Positions 3,504 to 45,563 of a DNA stretch of 64,000 bases are shown here, piece by piece (position 1 is the first letter of the stretch; each line of letters opens with the position of its first letter). The position numbers and the translations under genes were made by a program. The notes below the pieces were generated by a model, which was given only the letters and a program-made list of their open reading frames with translations, searched no databases and was not told where the DNA came from. Origin of the DNA: Riptortus pedestris. Lineage: Eukaryota > Arthropoda > Insecta > Hemiptera > Alydidae. The stretch lies in NCBI GenBank assembly GCA_019009955.1, contig CM032228.1, positions 97,794,001 through 97,858,000 on the forward strand. The letters are read 5' to 3'.

Positions 3504-3747
3504 ATGTTCTTCATAGTTTCATGGCAAGGGTCACCAATAAAAAAACATTTTTTTCGCGGAAACTTTGTTCATACTGGCCTACAGGTTTCGTGGTTTACAT
3601 TCTACATCATCAGCGGCTTTCCATTTGGATTGGGAATGGATAGCCCCTGAAGAGGTGGTATGTAAACTACGAACCATGTATGAATAAAATTTAACGAAAA
3701 AAAATGTTTTTTATTGGTGACCCTTGTCATGAAACTATGAAGAACAT
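3504..3747. mobile_element. MITE with about 53-bp terminal inverted repeats
   Basis: The left arm (3504-3556), with atgttcttcatagtttcatg, is matched in reverse by the right arm (3697-3747), with catgaaactatgaagaacat. About 140 bp of unique core lies between. No coding capacity. Confidence 0.7.
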
Positions 3748-4235: not shown

Positions 4236-4460
4236 AATGCTAGCGGACCCGACAGACGTTCTGCATGATATTTTAAGCGATTATGATATTAAATTAAATA
4301 ATACTATGTTTAAAACAAAAGCTACTTTTAATAACACAAAAAAAACAACTTTTGTTATGTGCACGTTTGCCTAAAAACAAATAGATAATGAAATATCGCG
4401 ATTTTTTTATCCAGGCCTTCCTTATAACCCTGACTCCCGTTTGAACCTAAAAAATTTAAT
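4236..4460 (+). repeat. Host interspersed repeat, 5' half (interrupted by the ribozyme array)
   Basis: Starts gctagcggacccgacag, then the acaacttttgttatg and ccttataacccc landmarks of the 180-790 family. It continues after the array at 6678. Confidence 0.55.
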
Positions 4461-4472
4461 ATAGCTTATAAT
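4461..4472. repeat. Left flanking 12-bp duplication of the ribozyme array
   Basis: ATAGCTTATAAT, repeated at 6666-6677. The uninterrupted relative of the host repeat near 433-445 has a single related stretch, so this is best read as a target-site duplication. Confidence 0.6.
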
Positions 4473-4921
4473 GATATTTGGTTCAAATGACTGGTCAGAC
4501 TTTTGTCAAATGACTTTTGTCAGATCCATTTGTCGAATGAACTTGGCTCACGCCGTTTCCGAAGAGTGTTTGGAAGACACTTTACAACATGACTTGTGGT
4601 TATGATGTTCTGGACTTGAAATCCAAAACGTTTGTTAACCTTTTGTCAAAAGTTGTTAAAACAACCTGACTTTTGGTATCATTCTGGATTTTCTCAAATC
4701 CAAAACGTTCATCAAACCTTTTGTCAAAATGTTGTAGAATTCCGTTTACTCAACTTTGTCCTAGGATAGCGCTCGGAGCGAAAGCTCACGTTTAGCACAC
4801 GCCTAGCTGAAGAGATCCGAAAGATCGAAACGAAGTAGTCCAAACTTGTATTTGCTGAAAATGGGTTTTGAAACTTTTCGCAATTGAGATTACTAGTTTC
4901 GGTGGATGGGACTTTGGTCTT

Positions 4922-4976
4922 ATCGTTTTCGTACTTACGGTGACTCATCAGCAACGCGAAGAAGCGTTGGAACGAT
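4922..4976 (-). ncRNA. Hammerhead ribozyme, copy 1 (intact)
   Basis: Minus-strand reading: stem III strand ATCGT (4976-4972), U (4971), C17 (4970), cleavage, stem I CAACGC (4969-4964), loop of 6, GCGTTG (4957-4952), core CUGAUGA (4951-4945), stem II segment (4944-4931), GAAA (4930-4927), stem III strand ACGAT (4926-4922). Stem I is 6 bp perfect, stem III 5 bp perfect, and stem II is GU/AC plus AC/GU around one bulged C with a CGTAA loop. All invariant core bases are present. Open at stem III, so type III topology. Confidence 0.88.
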
Positions 4977-5448
4977 TGGAATAAAGGCAAACTGCCTTGT
5001 TTTGATATTTGGTTCAAATGACTGGTCAGACTTTTGTCAAATGACTTTTGTCAGATCCATTTGTCGAATGAACTTGGCTCACGCCGTTTCCGAAGAGTGG
5101 AAGACACTTTACAACATGACTTGTGGTTATGATGTTCTGGACTTGAAATCCAAAACGTTTGTTAACCTTTTGTCAAAAGTTGTTAAAACAACCTGACTTT
5201 TGGTATCATTCTGGATTTTCTCAAATCCAAAACGTTCATCAAACCTTTTGTCAAAATGTTGTAGAATTCCGTTTACTCAACTTTGTCCTAGGATAGCGCT
5301 CGGAGCGAAAGCTCACGTTTAGCACACGCCTAGCTGAAGAGATCCGAAAGATCGAAACGAAGTAGTCCAAACTTGTATTTGCTGAAAATGGGTTTTGAAA
5401 CTTTTCGCAATTGAGATTACTAGTTTCGGTGGATGGGCCTTTGGTCTT

Positions 5449-5503
5449 ATCGTTTTCGTACTTACGGTGACTCATCAGCAACGCGAAGAAGCGTCGTAAC
5501 GAT
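5449..5503 (-). ncRNA. Hammerhead ribozyme, copy 2 (intact, two tolerated changes)
   Basis: Same architecture exactly 527 bp downstream. Two bases differ from copy 1: position 17 is A instead of C (still a valid NUH site), and one stem I A-U pair becomes a G-U wobble. Core and stems II and III are unchanged. Confidence 0.87.
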
Positions 5504-5765
5504 TGGAATAAAGGCAAACTGCCTTGTTTTGATATTTGGTTCAAATGACTGGTCAGACTTTTGTCAAATGACTTTTGTCAGATCCATTTGTCGAATGAAC
5601 TTGGCTCACGCCGTTTCCGAAGAGTGTTTGGAAGACACTTTACAACATGACTTGTGGTTATGATGTTCTGGACTTGAAATCCAAAACGTTTGTTAACCTT
5701 TTGTCAAAAGTTGTTAAAACAACCTGACGTTTGGTCAGTAGATTACTAGTTTCGGTGGATGGGAA

Positions 5766-5794
5766 TGATGAGTCACCGTAAGTACGAAAACGAT
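5766..5794 (+). pseudogene. Truncated hammerhead ribozyme
   Basis: Retains UGAUGA, stem II, GAAA and the ACGAT strand, but the inversion breakpoint at about 5764 removed the cleavage site, stem I and the first core C. It cannot self-cleave alone. Confidence 0.8.
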
Positions 5795-6270
5795 AAGACC
5801 AAAGTCCCATCCACCGAAACTAGTAATCTCAATTGCGAAAAGTTTCAAAACCCATTTTCAGCAAATACAAGTTTGGACTACTTCGTTTCGATCTTTCGGA
5901 TCTCTTCAGCTAGGCGTGTGCTAAACGTGAGCTTTCGCTCCGAGCGCTATCCTAGGACAAAGTTGAGTAAACGGAATTCTACAACATTTTGACAAAAGGT
6001 TTGATGAACGTTTTGGATTTGAGAAAATCCAGAATGATACCAAAAGTCAGGTTGTTTTAACAACTTTTGACAAAAGGTTAACAAACGTTTTGGATTTCAA
6101 GTCCAGAACATCATAACCACAAGTCATGTTGTAAAGTGTCTTCCAAACACTCTTCGGAAACGGCGTGAGCCAAGTTCATTCGACAAATGGATCTGACAAA
6201 AGTCATTTGACAAAAGTCTGACCAGTCATTTGAACCAAATATCAAAACAAGGCAGTTTGCCTTTATTCCA

Positions 6271-6325
6271 ATCGTTCCAACGCTTCTTCGCGTTGCTGAT
6301 GAGTCACCGTAAGTACGAAAACGAT
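6271..6325 (+). ncRNA. Hammerhead ribozyme, inverted copy (intact)
   Basis: Plus strand: ATCGT (6271-6275), U, C17 (6277), cleavage before 6278, CAACGC (6278-6283), loop TTCTTC, GCGTTG (6290-6295), CTGATGA (6296-6302), stem II (6303-6316), GAAA (6317-6320), ACGAT (6321-6325). Identical in sequence to copy 1. Confidence 0.88.
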
Positions 6326-6665
6326 AAGACCAAAGTCCCATCCACCGAAACTAGTAATCTCAATTGCGAAAAGTTTCAAAACCCATTTTCAGCAAATACA
6401 AGTTTGGACTACTTCGTTTCGATCTTTCGGATCTCTTCAGCTAGGCGTGTGCTAAACGTGAGCTTTCGCTCCGAGCGCTATCCTAGGACAAAGTTGAGTA
6501 AACGGAATTCTACAAATTTTGACAAAAGGTTTGATGAACGTTTTGGATTTGAGAAAATCCAGAATGATACCAAAAGTCAGGTTGTTTTAACAACTTTTGA
6601 CAAAAGGTTAACAAACGTTTTGGATTTCAAGTCCAGAACATCATAACCACAAGTCATGTTGTAAA

Positions 6666-6677
6666 ATAGCTTATAAT
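6666..6677. repeat. Right flanking 12-bp duplication of the ribozyme array
   Basis: Second copy of ATAGCTTATAAT, directly after the array; the host repeat then resumes and runs to about 7075. Confidence 0.6.
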
Positions 6678-7075
6678 CATGGAAGAATTAATGCTAACTT
6701 ACATACAGAGTTTTGTTAAGTTCGCTTCAATCGTTAGTGCCCAATAAAATTGTTGGCTCCCACTTTAATCTTTTAGTGTATATATCGTTTATACTTTGTT
6801 ATTCGACAAAAGGGAATATAACAAAAGCTACTCTAAATAACAAAATAAACAACTTTTATTCTTTGCATATTTGCCGAAAAACCAATAAGAAACGCAATAT
6901 AGCTATTTTTAATTTTAGGCCTCCCTTACAACCCTCACTCCTGCTCCATCTGCCGGGCTGATTTGTGAATCTAAACCATGCAGGGCGTCACTCAAACACA
7001 TACAAAAAAATCGTTCGAGCCGTTTAGGAGTAGTTCAGTGACATACACACGTACAGTAGAATTATATATATAAAG
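6678..7075 (+). repeat. Host interspersed repeat, 3' part
   Basis: Resumes with the caataaaattg, ctcccactttaatc and caacttttattc landmarks, then cctcccttacaaccc, gagccgtttaggag and a terminal ATATATATA before 7075. Confidence 0.5.
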
Positions 7076-18936: not shown

Positions 18937-21900
18937 GTAATTTCATTAGTACCTAATCATTTATAATATGCGCCTTTAACATGAAAATTCATCTTTATGA
19001 AATTGCTTTTTTTTTAAATGCCTATGTAAATAAATGTTGCATAAGCAATTTAATGTTTTAGTTTACTTCTATTAAAACCGCTTAGAAGAGCTTCCTTCAA
19101 AACCATTTAAGCGTAGCTATTCCTTTGCCAAATCTTTCAAACAGTAAAATAAGCAAATTTTTCTGTGTATTCTTATCCTTCTACTTCAGGTAATACATTT
19201 TATAAAGAAACATATACAGCCTTTAGACGAAAACTGACATCCAACAGATTATTTTGGTTTTACTACAACTTTTTTGGTTAAAGTGTATCTTCATCGATAG
19301 AGCACAAAAACTCAATTATATCCATAGAAATAGGGCAAAAATAGTGAAAATAAGTCTGGTTCATAACACTGTAAAATACAAATTGGGGAAAACAAATAAC
19401 TTGACCATGATAAGTTTGACGAATGTCTACGTACTATAGATCACCCTGTTTTTGCTCTATTTTTTTGTTTCATTGTTCAAGGAAGGTATTTTTTATGGAG
19501 CTTGCTTGTCACTGTGCATAAGACGAGAATGTCAAGAAGGAGCGAACAATATAGAAACTGCAGCATCACGTTCTGAATAAAACGTTGAATATTTTCACTT
19601 ACAAGAACAGCATGGGGCCCCTGACAAAGGTGTATCTCTAGTCACTTCTAGCGTGAAGTCTGAGTCGCTCTAGAAATACTTCAACTTTACACCCATAAAA
19701 CCTATTCGTTGACATTTCGTGCAATGGCCCCACGGTTATTATTACAGCTATAAAACCTATTCGTTGACATTTCGTACAATGGCCCCACGGTTATGTCACA
19801 TATGGGTTTAACTGTCATTCTTCATTCAAAAAATGTGACGAAAAAAAATCGTTTTATACTTCAAACAGGAGTTACAATTAGTGGACTAGAAGACACAATT
19901 GAGTAATAATTTATCAAATGGTATTTCATAAATGAAATTTACGTATTTGATTTCGATTTTGGTGGAACTATTTAAAGAAGAAATAATATTTCAGAATAAG
20001 AGTAGAATGTCCATGAGATCCTCATTTAATGGTTCAAAAGGACACAATAAGATTATGCATTCCCTACACAGTTCAAATTCATTGCATTCAAATTAAAAAT
20101 GAATAAAGGCATTAAATATAAATTGAAATAGTCTCTATGTCAGACCATAAATTCAATGGGAACGACATTTAGAGAAAAAGAATGTTCTCGATTGAAATAA
20201 CATCACCGCCTAATGTATTTAATCTAATGCTTTGAAACAGTTCTACTCTCCTAATTGATATAGTAGTAAACCTGCATTGATCTAACAAAGACTTGTGCTC
20301 AAGATTTCAAGTACATGATAAATATACAGAATACTGGAATAATAACCCCTGTCAGATATCGTAGGACTGTTCTATTGCCCAGTCTTGTCCTATTGGACAG
20401 AACAAGACAATGGACTATGGAAAAACAGGGCTACCAGATACACTCGAGATTACTGACCTAACCACTGTCCTGTATCTCATCATATTTATCCAGAATAAAA
20501 TGATATAAGGACGAGATTGAAGAGGAAAGAAAGAATTTCAAATTTCTGTTAAGTTTCAAATCGCCACATAATCAAACGGCTTAAATTATGGAGTTCTTAC
20601 TTTATTAATTCTTCTTTTCATGATTCAAAACACTATATCTCCCTTGAAATATAGAATGGAAATTATTAATATTAATACCGCTAAAGATTTGAGTTAAAAA
20701 TAGTTTTAGAACTTATTTTTTCTATCTCGTTAAAACATATTAAAGCTATGCATATTTTACACTACATCACATATTTTTGGGGTTCACACTTATGTACAAG
20801 AAAGTAAATAAATAATCACAATAACACAAATATCCAAAGAAATATATTTCTAAATAATAAGTTTTTACTAAAAATAAATTACTCCCAGAAATAAAGTTTC
20901 TTAAAAATGTCACTGAGTGTTTGTGTGTGTGTTCAATCATCACATGTAAACCTAAATGAATTTTTCACCTAGTTCAAGCAAATCACCTCTCTGATTTAAA
21001 AGTTGTTATTCGATTATCACAGAACCTACATTAATGTATTTAATTTTCTGTGTACAATACCCTCAAACAGCATGTTTCACGACACAAGATATAAGGTAAC
21101 TAAACTACCTCGGCTCTCTCTGTATCTTTTTAGTCTGTCTTGAGGAGACAGCCATCAGAGAATCATCATTTCTTAAGTAAATAGACCGATTCTCACTTCT
21201 TTCACCTCAGTAATTTCGTGATATTGAACATTTCAATTACTGCTTACATAGATTTACAATTAGTGAGAAATATAGAATAGATGATGAAAGGGGAGGTTTA
21301 ATGAAGGCTGAAAATTAAAAATCAAATATATCTATTAATATGCGAGATAAAGAATAAGTAGAACAAAGTTTATAGAAACATTTGTAACGGAGATATATCG
21401 AATTATCGATTCCCTCTCCCCCCCCCCGTTGGTTCGACATCCTTTTGGAATTGTGCGACTTTCCAGCAACCGATTTCGCCTTGTACATTGTGCAGGCTAC
21501 AAATGTTCCCTTCAACAGGAAATTTTGAATCCTATGGGAAAGGGCAAGAGAGCACACGGGCATGTAGATGATTCCCCAGGTATACTTCATGAACATACCT
21601 AAAAATGTCCATCACGCAGGAGCAGCTCAAACAAACAATACTTATTGTCTATATTTCCCGCAGGAAGATGCCTATGTAAACAGGAATTGAAATGAGACCC
21701 GGACTAGAGATACTAGGGTGAATCAAATATAAACGAGACTTTTCGTCTTTCGGGCACAGTAGTGGTGGGAGAACGTTCCCGCCTTTTTGTTGTTGGGTAG
21801 GTTAGTCAGGATTAGGGGAAGCACGTGGTCTCGCCACCTCGATCGTCTCGTTGTCCACCGTGACGATGTCGGAGGAAGAGGTACCCCCGACGACTGCGCA

Positions 21901-23446
21901 ACGTGTCGTAATTAAGTATCTCGCCGCAAAAGGCGTAAAACCGGCCGAAATCTTGAGGAGATTGACTGCACAGTTCGGGGAAAAGACACTTTCGCGAGCC
22001 AGAACTTGGGTGCACCACTACACCCCAGAGTCTAAACAAGCGAGTATGGAGTGGAGAAAACAAGGAGAACCTGGACCAGTGAAAGCCAAGTCACGATTGT
22101 CAGCAAGCAAGGTTTTGGCTACCGTTTTTTTTGACCAGCGTGGTTTGCTGTACCTCAATTTTTTGCATGAGCGCAGGATAATTAATGCAGCCTACTACTG
22201 CGACATTTTCAGTGACGTCCGACTTGCATATCGCCGCAAAAGACGAGACGTACCGATCAGAGAAGTGGTTCTTCTCCATGACAATACTCGCCCCCATATA
22301 GCAGCCATGACTAGGGAAAAATTGGAGCAACTGGGGTGGGAGACACTGGAACACCCTCCTTACAGTCCAGACCTGTCACCCTGTGACTTTCATGTGTTTG
22401 GCCCTCTCAAGGAAGCTTTAGGAGGCCAAAGATTCGACAGTGATGGTGAGGTTGAAGCCTATTGCGCAATTGGCTGCAGACACGACCTGCATCTTTCTAC
22501 ATGGAAGGAATTGGAAAGCTACATATCCTCTAGGAAAAATGTGTTTCCAAGTCAGGGGATTATGTAGAAAAATAAGCTATATTATTTTTTGCGTTTAAAA
22601 TTAAAATAAATTTTAAAAAAAAAAAGTCTCGTTTATATTTGATTCACCCACGTACTTAGTTTCGTGCTGAGGTATCGTAAAATTGAAAGTGGGGGTTTCA
22701 AGACGCCTGAAAACTTAAAATCAATTTGCAACAAGATTTCTTGATTTCTTGCTCCTCTGATATAAAAACAGTGAAAAATTAAACAAGGACGGTATTATGC
22801 GATACTGTAGATGATTTTCTGGGCATTACAAGTGTATGCCGCTTTTCTATTCCTACTGCCCCCTCTCCTCCGCTAGTACTAATTTTCTGATAGTCCATTA
22901 TCCTTCTCATCATCTATGTTCTAGGCCGATTATGACAGCGCCCTAAGGATGAAGTTCTTGCCTTTAGTTTTGAAGTATTGTAGTTGGTATTTACTGGTCT
23001 TCTTGAACCAGCAGCCTGACTGATCCCTGGCCAATCTTCATTCTCAATACAAGCATGTCTTATCACAATTTATTTTGCTTACATACATTATAAATAAATG
23101 GATAATTGGGATATTTTACACTATTTTCTCAATACTAAATAGCTAAAGCACCTACCTAACTATTTAAACGACGCTACTGTCCCTGAAGGACCATGGTCTC
23201 TGCCTCCACCATTTTTTATTCTTCTCGCCCTTGCAACCAGGCTTCTCCAATTATAGATCTGATATTAAACCTAATTGAGATTATATTGTATCTTCTGATA
23301 TAAACGTTTTTAGAATTGAGCAGATTCATTTACAACTATTACTTCAGGGCAATTGGCTATATTTGCGGAAATAATGATTGTTGTATTTTTGGTACATATA
23401 CATTTTTCAGTATTACAAATACTTGTGTTGTACCTATAGTAGATCT

Positions 23447-43893: not shown

Positions 43894-45563
43894 ACCCTTT
43901 AATTGCGCAAAGCCACTATAGTGGCTTGAAACAGGCTACTATAGTGGATTTGCGCAATTAAAGGGATAATACAAGATATATCAAAATAAAATAGCATAAC
44001 TTAATTGTCATGGTATAGTTTCATACAATATACTTCTTTATATAGCTGTGAGTAGCAGCAGGCTATTTTATTTTTGTCTTTACAGCCGTAAACAATTAAA
44101 AAGAGCTTCCCATATTCAAATGCTTGTTCAAAAGTACTATAAAAATACTTCCCATTCAAAAAAAGGCACAAGATGCCCCAAAACTTCTTTGATTTTCAAC
44201 TTATTTACTTTCAGGTTGATATAATATAGTGTGTGTGTGTGCATGTGTTCATTTTAAGGTTGTATGAGTGCATCTTAAGGTGCTATTATGCGTACATTTT
44301 AACATTGTATGTGTGCATTTTAAAGTGCTATTATGTGTACATTTTAAGGTTGTATGTTTGCATTTTAAGGTTGTATGTTTGCATTTTAAGGTGCTATTAT
44401 GTGTACATTTTAAGGATGTATGTGTACATTTTAAGGTTGTATGTGTTCATTTTAAGGTTGTATGTGTGCATTTTAAGGTGTTATTACTCTCAATTTTTGC
44501 AGAGTATTAAATGAGTCATCTTAAACAGTGGCTAACCTGGAACCCTTATTATTAATTTTAAATAAACAGGCTCACTTTTTATAAGATTCACCAGTGTACT
44601 CTCTCTAGTTTTTATTAAAACTAAACTCTACTAAAGGAAATAATGTCCAGAATCACAAACTCTTGAATTTGAGTAGAAGAAAATGTTGTAGTAAAGAAAT
44701 TCTGTTTATGTTGTTCATACAACTAGAATTTGCTACTTCATTATTTAAGTAACTCTTGAAAGGGCCATGGTTCTTAGGTAGCAAGAGTGATGTGTCATGA
44801 CTAATCACACAACCACAATTACCAGCAATATAAAAGTAACCAACTTATCAGATCAAGAAAGAGGTTCTTTCCGCAGACTGTCATTAGGGAGGAGAAAAGG
44901 CAGCAGAATCTCCATTGAAAGACAAATATCCCTGCACAGTTCTCTATTTTCTAATAATATTTCAATCTAGAGCATTTGTACTTTTAATTATAATATGTTT
45001 CGAAAAACCAATAATTTTTTTGAAACCCAATAACATTTTTAAAAAATTAAATGTACTTTTTGTTTAGAAAACCCAACAAAAAAATATTTTAGTTATAGCA
45101 AATAATTCTTTGCTCGTTTGTTCTAAAATGCCACTGAACATTTTAGCCAACAATTCTTTCTATTTAACTAAAACAATTACTTTTTCAGAACTGTGAAGAC
45201 TGGGACGCAGAAAACCACAGAAATTCAAATAAGAATAGCAATACTAACAAGGTTTACTACATGGGCAATGAAAGACTAGATAGTTACAATGAAAAAAATC
45301 AAAACAGGCCTACAAATGGTGGATCCTATGGCAGCAGAGGAGAGAGAGGTGATCAAAACAAGTATTCCAATGATAGAGAATACTCAGATGATAGAAAAAA
45401 CAATGGCTATAATTATAATCAGAACAACAGAGAATCTCAAAAAGGGAAAATGAAAAATGAGCAAGAAAGAGATGAAAATTCAAGAAACAGAGGCCATATT
45501 AATCAAAATGATGAAAATAACGAACAAAGAAAGCTTCAAAATTATTATCAAAACAGAGGATAA
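31667..45563 (+). CDS. Odorant-binding protein with Asn-rich insertion and tail (eight exons, complete)
   Basis: Exons: 31667-31717, 33781-33898, 37628-37717, 39246-39469, 43179-43214, 43293-43419, 43495-43562, 45189-45563. All joins are GT-AG and keep frame; total 1089 nt, 362 aa. Residues 1-17 are a hydrophobic signal peptide, so the product should be secreted. Cysteines fall at 21, 40, 162, 166, 209, 222, 231 and 240. The set 40/162/166/209/222/231 has the OBP spacing C2-x3-C3, C3-x42-C4, C4-x12-C5, C5-x8-C6; C21 and C240 look like an extra pair. Known for the family: small secreted carriers of hydrophobic ligands, usually 120-150 aa. Odd here: about 121 residues between C1 and C2 and 122 residues after the last Cys, both rich in Asn, Gln, Glu, Arg and Tyr. 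The KCR start, CEDW end and long C1-C2 region recall the insect Obp59a type, an inference from memory. The donor of exon 4 is the weakest join; 39460 is an in-frame alternative. Confidence 0.85.
32060..32845 (+). pseudogene. 5'-truncated LINE, C-terminal end with Cys/His motif
   Basis: Flanked by a perfect 12-bp duplication TTTAATGACTAA (32048-32059 and 32846-32857), with a 3' (AAATA)n-type tail. Coding remnants: TQVLNDWLQTDNKLREIL, then, after a stop and frameshift, PTCTHCNTVLAIKHLLTDC, the C-x2-C-x(n)-H-x4-C motif at the C-terminus of jockey/I-type LINE polymerases. Inactive. Lies in intron 1 of the OBP gene. Confidence 0.8.
33781..33898 (+). CDS. OBP exon 2: mature N-terminus with C1
   Basis: Acceptor ttttttag, donor gtgagt. 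Encodes 39 codons plus one base. It begins GLKCR, carries an acidic helix-like stretch and the motif ENIVRSCLKQ, which fits helix 1 and the first OBP cysteine, and ends in a Gln/Asn-rich run that opens the insertion. Confidence 0.8.
34281..34383 (+). repeat. Three tandem copies of a 35-bp unit
   Basis: tttgcgacaaatataccc recurs at 35-bp spacing (GCGAC at 34291, 34326, 34361) with one or two differences. Intronic in the OBP gene. Confidence 0.85.
35180..36400 (+). pseudogene. Degenerate LINE reverse transcriptase fragment
   Basis: Stop-ridden plus-strand homology: RKKFSVDFLSSIYKYSSAQN, TPGPSPITHNMKQTLPEIGF, then PGKYKNLN and a YRLI-like WTNCLRKLEKKL segment. This order (linker, finger motif, PGK, YRPISLL equivalent) fits a jockey-type LINE between the endonuclease and RT palm. 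Old insertion in the OBP intron. Confidence 0.6.
36943..37278 (-). pseudogene. Unrecognised 111-codon open frame
   Basis: Starts MPKHRYFTSPNGYDLFSVQ and includes PGETLAQMMDD, MGQSMIPLDPDEGGPMVL and a hydrophobic stretch EGYILFIAPISFTELILP. Flanking minus-strand frames (36861-37091, 36656-36886) may continue it across frameshifts. GC content is above the surrounding intron. I do not recognise a domain. It lies antisense in OBP intron 2, so it may be a retrocopy or transposon relic; a chance frame cannot be excluded. Confidence 0.3.
37628..37717 (+). CDS. OBP exon 3: Asn/His/Arg-rich insertion
   Basis: Acceptor ttctag, donor gtaata. The split codons on both sides restore Gly and Asp and keep the frame. 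The exon is entirely hydrophilic, rich in Asn, Arg, His and Gln, with no cysteine. Confidence 0.72.
38080..38440 (+). pseudogene. Penelope-like element fragment, GIY-YIG endonuclease region
   Basis: Decayed frame reads YSIP, a stop where Cys is expected, then CGKEYIGQTGR, the GIY-YIG endonuclease signature typical of Penelope-like elements. Upstream remnants resemble the KKYNIK-type linker and downstream ones the AVAEH region. Several stops and shifts. Located in OBP intron 3. Confidence 0.75.
38773..38850 (+). repeat. tRNA-derived SINE, 3' fragment
   Basis: agggtggtaacctgtagata, then cccgattagcgtagtagcat and a ggacgtaaataataataa tail. Confidence 0.5.
39246..39469 (+). CDS. OBP exon 4: acidic then Asn-rich insertion
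   Basis: Acceptor ctaatag. It starts acidic (DKEENDEDADYDY), then Asn/Gln/Gly-rich, and ends SPLEGVEP before a gtaaaa donor at 39470. Reading through instead reaches a stop at 39494-39496, which would give a truncated product lacking the ligand-binding core. Both in-frame donor choices join to the Cys codon that opens exon 5. Confidence 0.68.
40900..41110 (+). mobile_element. Helentron-like element fragment
   Basis: Carries the ggtccgattttagccgat and gagtttggtaacgat landmarks but no terminal structures; ends at acagacaaatatt beside the next copy. Confidence 0.5.
41132..41616 (+). mobile_element. Helentron-like element, full length (485 bp)
   Basis: 5' end aaaaagtccgtcacgcaggg leads to AAGCAGATTTCCCACGTG; a short (AT)n core is at about 41473-41491; the 3' end is the hairpin gatttcccttaagagaaatc followed by TGCTAA. 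The 12-nt AGCAGATTTCCC near the 5' end is repeated inverted in the 3' hairpin, the subterminal inverted repeat arrangement of Helentron-associated elements. No protein coded. Best reference copy in the window. Confidence 0.62.
41765..42083 (+). mobile_element. Helentron-like element with internal deletion
   Basis: Same 5' end as the neighbour at 41132 and same 3' hairpin and CTAA, but it lacks the (AT)n core and the second half, joining tttcgaaaatatct directly to cccttaagggaaatctg. Confidence 0.62.
42636..42813 (-). mobile_element. Helentron-like element, short copy
   Basis: Reverse copy from the atgttcatcgctcctaccta landmark through a short AT tract to ggaaatctgcttagttta and cacctgcttgaca; large internal deletion. 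Confidence 0.5.
43179..43214 (+). CDS. OBP exon 5: 36-bp microexon with C2-x3-C3
   Basis: Acceptor gattttag, consensus donor gtaagt. Encodes CIIHCIFKQKKM, the diagnostic C-x3-C of OBP helix 3. At 12 codons it is easily missed by gene prediction, which would split the locus in two. Confidence 0.8.
43293..43419 (+). CDS. OBP exon 6: helices 4-5 with C4
   Basis: Acceptor ttttag, donor gtaaga. 42 codons plus one base. Ends in SINECLDILHN, matching the helix that carries the fourth OBP cysteine. Confidence 0.82.
43495..43562 (+). CDS. OBP exon 7: C5-x8-C6
   Basis: Acceptor ttttttag, donor gtatgt. Encodes KCEDSKHFALCLEEKGKK, with the invariant eight-residue spacing between C5 and C6. Confidence 0.85.
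43607..43825 (-). repeat. tRNA-derived SINE, copy 3
   Basis: Reverse head gggctcaggttagccatgtg, box B-like agttcaattcc (43755-43765), body ggtaaccggtcccaattagc and tail ttgcaaaaaatggatgtta. The longest copy. Lies in OBP intron 7. Confidence 0.65.
43834..43889. repeat. (AT)n microsatellite
   Basis: About 56 bp of uninterrupted AT repeat, bordered by the SINE on the left and the mini-piggyBac repeat on the right. Confidence 0.9.
43895..43965. mobile_element. 71-bp piggyBac-like mini-MITE
   Basis: Preceded by TTAA (43891-43894). The left arm CCCTTTAATTGCGCAAA and the right arm TTTGCGCAATTAAAGGG are exact inverses for 17 bp, extended by CCACTATAGTGG on both sides. The right flank is ATAA, one base off TTAA. 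CCC termini and the TTAA target fit the piggyBac superfamily. Confidence 0.68.
44231..44485 (+). repeat. Minisatellite, unit about 22 bp
   Basis: About eleven units of tgtgtgcattttaaggttgta with an alternating variant gtgctattatgtgtacattt. Reading frames across it (VHFKV repeats) are artefacts. Lies in OBP intron 7. Confidence 0.85.
45189..45563 (+). CDS. OBP exon 8: extra Cys and Asn-rich tail
   Basis: Acceptor tttttcag. Starts NCEDWD, with the eighth Cys exactly eight residues after C6, then runs 118 residues of Asn/Arg/Glu/Lys/Tyr-rich hydrophilic sequence to a TAA stop at 45561-45563. Confidence 0.83.
   Translation, partial: NCEDWDAENHRNSNKNSNTNKVYYMGNERLDSYNEKNQNRPTNGGSYGSRGERGDQNKYSNDREYSDDRKNNGYNYNQNNRESQKGKMKNEQERDENSRNRGHINQNDENNEQRKLQNYYQNRG

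Follow-up and report, generated by a model that had tools for sequence, protein, structure and literature searches.

A non-coding insect repeat with a type III hammerhead motif, whose head-to-head insertions suggest priming on both target strands

A dispersed, non-coding repeat of an insect genome carries one hammerhead ribozyme motif per unit, conserved among its copies, and has been inserted between target-site duplications, in many loci as two arrays joined head to head. One such insertion lies at positions 4473-6665 of the 64,000-nucleotide stretch of DNA analysed here (the window). The element is probably a non-autonomous, retrozyme-like retroelement that spreads by target-primed reverse transcription on both target strands, starting from two internal sites on one RNA that is itself likely to be circular. 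It extends the animal retrozymes by a type III hammerhead, a longer unit and insertions recording two-strand priming. Because the copies record priming sites, strand use and passage along the template, the proposal of circle-templated reverse transcription becomes testable by sequence alone.

The insertion is 2193 bp long and is flanked by exact copies of a 12-bp target-site duplication, ATAGCTTATAAT, at 4461-4472 and 6666-6677, which bears out to the base the coordinates given by an earlier reading of the letters alone (the sequence-only reading). It consists of two head-to-head arrays of one 531-bp unit, the left arm being antisense and the right arm sense to the ribozyme. The left array, on the minus strand, comprises unit 1 (4473-5003, 531 bp), whose left edge is end B (...GAACCAAATATC in the sense-strand reading), unit 2 (5004-5530, 527 bp), which has a 4-base deletion and three substitutions, two of them common to locus L011, and, at 5531-5764, an inner partial unit (unit positions 1-205) with a 25-base fragment (positions 415-439). 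The right array, on the plus strand, is made of an inner partial unit (5766-6243, from 478 to 1), which starts inside the ribozyme and so holds a broken hammerhead, and an outer partial unit (6244-6665), whose right edge is end A (...CATGTTGTAAA). The spacing of 527 and 531 agrees with the 527-531 bp unit reported earlier; the tandem 527-bp unit of the same reading holds for the left arm, where the predicted minus-strand cleavage sites are 527 nt apart, but the whole is a head-to-head inverted insertion and not a plain tandem. The longest frame over the unit, read stop to stop at 6197-6646, has 149 aa, and the insertion is non-coding; a protein search with a frame from the window returned no homologue. 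A diverged 102-nt repeat (77%) flanks the insertion on either side, at 4336-4437 and 6840-6941, and the insertion may sit in an older repeat.

The hammerhead, with type III topology and helix III open, is real. Two canonical copies, identical in form, lie at 4922-4976 on the minus strand (predicted cut between 4970 and 4969) and at 6270-6326 on the plus strand (predicted cut between 6277 and 6278). Three intact copies had been claimed; the third, at 5448-5504 on the minus strand, is a permissible variant in which A stands in place of C at the predicted cut and stem I contains a G-U pair, and a fourth, at 5766 on the plus strand, is truncated within the motif at the inversion point. In the copies of the window, helix I has 6 bp and a UUCUUC loop, and helix II, closed by a CGUAA loop, is limited to 4 bp with a single bulged base. 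A type III descriptor (stem I of at least 5 bp, NUH, CUGANGA, GAAA and stem III of at least 4 bp) matched at 6278 (+), 4969 (-) and 5496 (-) and nowhere else in the window. When the unit was shuffled 4000 times with dinucleotides preserved, no match arose; 149,700 bp of sequence not belonging to the element gave a single, poor one, in which 31 nt separate CUGAGGA from GAAA.

Covariance models recognise the motif below their thresholds. In a search with 96 nt, the type III model RF00008 was the sole match among 4227 Rfam families (E<=10) and was aligned end to end, which answers to the covariance check envisaged by the sequence-only reading; its score, 21.6 bits for the copy at 6270-6326, is under the 48.5-bit gathering cut-off. 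The whole window gave no Rfam match at gathering cut-offs, and a 2.3-kb search lacked RF00008 and returned only weak HH9, SL2, Histone3 and miRNA models elsewhere, far under their cut-offs. Genome-wide searches with RF00008 and RF00163 gave 0 matches here, but likewise 0 in every control genome, so that these zeros carry no information.

Self-cleavage is predicted from the motif. A hammerhead that is only a relic, in an element that spreads without RNA cleavage, is distinctly unlikely, and several properties of the motif do fit a relic: the weak, bulged stem II, the score under the Rfam cut-off, and a best single-strand fold that is another one. Folded in isolation, the 55-mer does not adopt the hammerhead at minimum energy (z -0.71, with 42 of 200 shuffles equally good), and in a circular fold of the unit, 61% paired, helix I is the only one of the hammerhead helices to form. 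The pattern of conservation argues the other way, as the core and the majority of stem positions hardly vary, against a diverging remainder. In 71 diverged segments, at most 93% identical to the unit and drawn from 39 loci picked by whole-unit similarity and not by ribozyme, the ribozyme (unit positions 451-506) is 98.9% identical, against 90.2% for the remainder. It is the twelfth best conserved of 475 56-nt windows of the unit, the best ones starting at 303-311. The best conserved stretch of all (~303-366) overlaps a CUAGG...CCUAG hairpin at unit positions ~288-335 (4760-4807 on the minus strand, and its repeats), singled out by conservation and by the circular fold; it is a candidate protein-binding structure that may bind the reverse transcriptase.

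A 25-nt core of the motif occurs in 191 places of the genome at up to 3 mismatches, as against 0 for its reversed control. The 110 motif matches aligned comprise 53 distinct rows, of which 16 were discarded as cut off or unrelated, and among the 37 kept CUGAUGA is retained in 35 and GAAA in 35. With 16 pairs scored in each of these 37 rows, pairing is seen in 530 of 592 cells; the outermost pair of helix III, present in only 19 rows, is a further point for a relic. When this pair and seven rows that look chimeric or shifted are set aside, 96% of the cells of the remaining 30 rows and 15 pairs are paired, compared with 19-54% when the partners are slid. Stem covariation in this set is not above that of shuffles: there is little variation in the rows, and the one double change, from C-G to U-A at locus L061, is matched by 231 of 500 shuffles. 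Against a relic, the bulged base of stem II varies freely (18 C and 19 U of 37), while the next most variable site of that stem keeps its pair, U-A (30) alternating with U-G (5). In loci L065, L077 and L059 the inversion point falls within the ribozyme and joins its two strands head to head.

The host assembly (1.08 Gb in 138 contigs, six of those seen being chromosome-sized at 141-260 Mb) contains 110 matches to 7tm_6, with none in 14 control genomes; this is the odorant-receptor family of insects, which is not known outside them, and the earlier assignment to an insect is thereby upheld. With the unit as query, at least 119 matches were found genome-wide (40 of 736 first-look candidates scored), and the description as a type III hammerhead in a dispersed repeat is borne out by the descriptor, the Rfam model and these copies together. 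Subfamilies have units of 531, ~512 and 438 bp. Unit sequences reach 100% identity between copies that have different target duplications, which implies recent activity. A degenerate 36-nt piece of the motif had no exact pattern match in viral and prokaryotic contigs, and there is thus no sign of an infectious relative among them.

Sixty loci were examined for structure, namely the window, 39 picked by the unit and 20 picked by the ribozyme pattern. Inverted arrangements were found in 35, all of them head-to-head and none tail-to-tail, and the other 25 have a single arm; since a head-to-head arrangement is unchanged by reverse complementation, the absence of the tail-to-tail form is meaningful. 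The outer ends, at which the 3' ends of the RNA face outward, are confined to two narrow sites, A (...CATGTTGTAAAGTGT) and B (...GAACCAAATATC), both with subfamily variants, which lie ~104 nt apart in the 531-bp unit. All 27 inverted loci in which both ends could be typed have one A and one B (a chance of ~2e-9 under free choice of ends), one end being untyped in the 8 further inverted loci, and among the single-arm loci 14 end in A and 9 in B, with 2 untyped. Typing required a motif no more than 45 nt from the matched boundary, and most were within 9 nt; the loosest among the inverted loci are those of L031 (45 nt) and L039 (21 nt), and TA microsatellites were masked in the reference pieces.

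Exact repeats of at least 10 bp between the flanks, with a mode of 12, are present in 34 of 41 loci and in 15 of 1793 mismatched flank pairs, the sample being 43 of the 60 loci with 2 pure-TA cases removed (the repeat of L034 is nearly pure TA); these repeats are 82% A+T. In several copies the duplication overlaps the A or B end by a few bases, which would follow from pairing of the cut end with the RNA at that site. Long inverted arms between target duplications would likewise be left by a fold-back DNA transposon that contains a hammerhead by chance; such an origin is hardly credible for an element whose two ends differ in sequence, whose inner junctions vary from copy to copy, of which 25 of 60 loci have a single arm, and in which the ribozyme is conserved.

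LINE insertion produces target duplications, 5' truncation and inversion. The duplications of 10-17 bp, the truncation and the inversion seen here fit that pattern in general, and a reverse transcriptase of the LINE type could therefore be the mover, with the inversions arising by ordinary L1-like twin priming. We consider this unlikely. No poly-A or simple 3' repeat was seen at A or B ends, and A and B are both fixed positions inside the unit, whereas L1 twin priming leaves one fixed and one scattered end.

The paired arms have inner ends that lie 31 nt or more apart on the unit in 21 of 22 unit-picked inverted loci, and the inner junctions are unique and mostly non-palindromic, one (L045) being palindromic. 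The copies are consequently independent events, and hairpin self-priming, as proposed for Penelope palindromes, is unlikely and was rejected for these 21 junctions. By eye, inner ends seem clustered near the ribozyme (~440-527) and near site A (~60-150), as if copying had stopped at the folded ribozyme or at the other primer. In 24 of 60 loci an arm is longer than 560 nt, up to 1789 nt, and arms longer than the unit mean that the template was copied across the cleavage site.

Whether both arms were copied from one RNA can be judged from their similarity. Between the opposite arms of one insertion the L021-L032 type shows a divergence of 0.40% (8 pairs), and between insertions one of 3.14% (177); the corresponding values in the 438 type are 0.51% (9) and 1.76% (93). 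The contrast is small in the 512 type, with 0.76% (8) against 1.04% (104), and in the young 531 type, with 0.25% (14) against 0.36% (133). Units of the same arm differ by 0.86% (L021-L032), 0.15% (438), 1.49% (512, 8 pairs) and 0.22% (young 531), and the 512 value, which exceeds that between elements, is due mainly to one L015 unit that is 2.3-4.8% off its neighbours. In two of four subfamilies the arms thus clearly resemble each other more than they resemble other copies; where a distinction is possible, both arms derive from one RNA or from almost identical ones. In the window copy, the variants of unit 2 (the two L011-shared substitutions, another substitution and the deletion) are absent from the neighbouring units, so that this copy needs a multimeric or switched template and not one monomer circle.

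The same element could also have been copied from a linear multimeric template, the rule of one A and one B end then reflecting two neighbouring sites held in place by a dimeric reverse transcriptase, and not the presence of a single A and a single B in each circle. This is a real possibility, if a somewhat doubtful one. The divergent unit 2, with two of its variants seen in L011, and the divergent L015 unit speak for it, as does, in the parts of the study that bear on this point, the finding that a Penelope-like enzyme of Anolis inserts without ribozyme cleavage in vitro, unprocessed RNA having been taken as its dominant substrate (PMC11167929). The near-identity of opposite arms in two subfamilies speaks against it, and so strongly conserved a ribozyme suggests that cleavage has a role in spread. 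A circle is the template that we favour, as a preference and not as a proven fact.

With a circular template, the steps would probably be as follows. Multimeric sense RNA would be transcribed and cut by the type III hammerhead into monomers of ~440-530 nt, which a host ligase would close into circles. A reverse transcriptase able to cut both strands, most likely of the Penelope type, would open an AT-rich target with a stagger of ~12 bp, and both 3' ends would prime cDNA on one RNA, at sites A and B, one per strand, as the structure of the copies suggests. As the arm lengths show, a cDNA can pass through the repeat more than once, producing tandem units, and as the junctions show, the two cDNAs are joined at arbitrary inner points, which gives head-to-head insertions with target duplications; a single productive priming end would leave a 5'-truncated, single-arm copy. 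The full version, in which a dimeric Penelope-type enzyme on one ribozyme-made circle primed both strands, at A and at B, and rolling reverse transcription then made two cDNAs that were joined, is put forward tentatively, as a strong possibility that falls just short of being probable. If it is true, the A-plus-B rule documents in vivo that both strands are primed on a circular template, in an animal lineage using the plant-type hammerhead.

Circle-templated reverse transcription has only been proposed for animal retrozymes, with Penelope-like enzymes as strong candidates, in the parts of the account that concern mobility (PMC7229834). The hammerheads of animal retrozymes are mostly of type I and those of plant retrozymes of type III, as the passages compared from two accounts agree (PMC7229834, PMC7761336) and as the sequence-only reading had stated. 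Like the metazoan non-LTR retrozymes, which are described in the compared parts of the first account as tandem arrays of short, AT-rich units, each with a hammerhead, that occur in many copies with target duplications of more than 4 bp (PMC7229834), the element is a dispersed non-coding repeat with a hammerhead per unit and duplications longer than 4 bp. It differs from them in hammerhead type and in size, being of type III with units of 438-531 bp, as opposed to type I with RNAs of ~170-400 nt or units of ~170-400 bp, and a head-to-head inversion with two fixed ends is not described in the parts of that account compared here (PMC7229834). The plant LTR retrozymes, in the sections compared, have a type III hammerhead, a unit of several hundred bp and a proposed circle-mediated spread in common with the element, and differ in their LTRs, primer-binding site, polypurine tract and 4-bp duplications (PMC4918200, PMC7761336); the duplications here are of ~12 bp, and inverted arms are no LTR arrangement.

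The insertions show the pattern of those of Penelope-like elements. In the portions of the Anolis study compared, the purified Penelope-like protein cuts and extends both strands and prefers AT-rich DNA, and reverse transcription starts from two adjacent internal RNA sites, the sequence between which forms a 'tail' in some copies; two findings count against the present reading, in that the authors saw no difference in start site between strands and that the hammerhead was unnecessary for insertion in vitro (PMC11167929). In the corresponding portions on rotifers, Penelope elements have inverted terminal repeats, mostly head-to-head, with an optional 31-bp tail on one repeat; only some copies have target duplications, of 8-10 bp, and for the palindromes the authors favoured self-priming (PMC3846280). 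Head-to-head inverted repeats, a one-sided tail, two adjacent starts, target duplications in many copies and hammerhead motifs are features held in common, as far as these sources go (PMC11167929, PMC3846280), and inverted ends of which one is longer by a fixed tail are what was found in the element (27 of 27 with A and B). The tail is 30-40 bp in Penelope-like elements, in the parts compared, and there are ~104 nt between the sites here; their hammerheads, as characterised in part of another source, are minimal ones of type I (PMC7229834), and that of the element is of type III. Penelope-like elements encode a reverse transcriptase and an endonuclease, whereas the element is non-coding; with a longest frame of 149 aa in 2193 bp it is not a Penelope-like member but at most moved by one. 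By analogy, then, a partner of the Penelope type would supply its mobility. What sets it apart is this insertion pattern without a coding region, together with junctions unexplained by self-priming, and the copies suggest that in Penelope-like elements themselves the head-to-head ends and the one-sided tail may have another origin than self-priming. The genome has at least 36 matches to the GIY-YIG endonuclease (150 of 721 candidates scored), in frames of up to 631 aa, which fits such a partner; against it, judged by eye, none of these 36 places is close to the 62 A-motif or 65 B-motif places found with young-type motifs at no more than one mismatch.

Type III hammerheads are not unheard of in animals, as shown by an atypical motif in mammalian Clec2 genes (PMC6155905) and by variants in HDV-like RNAs of toads and termites (PMC7761336), each as given in the relevant part of the source; a passage of the latter also mentions type III elements in 'bacteria or insects', as work in preparation (PMC7761336). 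The present copies extend this type to an animal retrozyme. Among insects, the pDo500 satellite of Dolichopoda cave crickets is, in the part of its description compared, a repeat of ~500 bp with a hammerhead more conserved than the remainder (PMC2837043), and the hammerheads of Aedes aegypti are, likewise in part, described as interspersed and in many copies (PMC3088659); both are likened here by description only, and pDo500 differs in being a satellite, early invertebrate examples being grouped as type I in the portion compared of PMC7761336. In a literature search largely confined to freely accessible journals, the combination of hammerhead ribozyme, twin priming and retrotransposon was not found, and for type III hammerheads in insects only work on HDV-like RNA was found.

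Other repeats and transposon remains accompany the insertion in the window. A frame at 21806-22567 on the plus strand has a transposase domain of the mariner type (Pfam Transposase_1). An inverted repeat at 3504-3556 and 3695-3747, with 53-nt arms that are 92% complementary and 138 nt apart, looks like a small inverted-repeat transposon, and a tandem array with nested periods of 21, 45 and 66 bp is located at 44237-44479.
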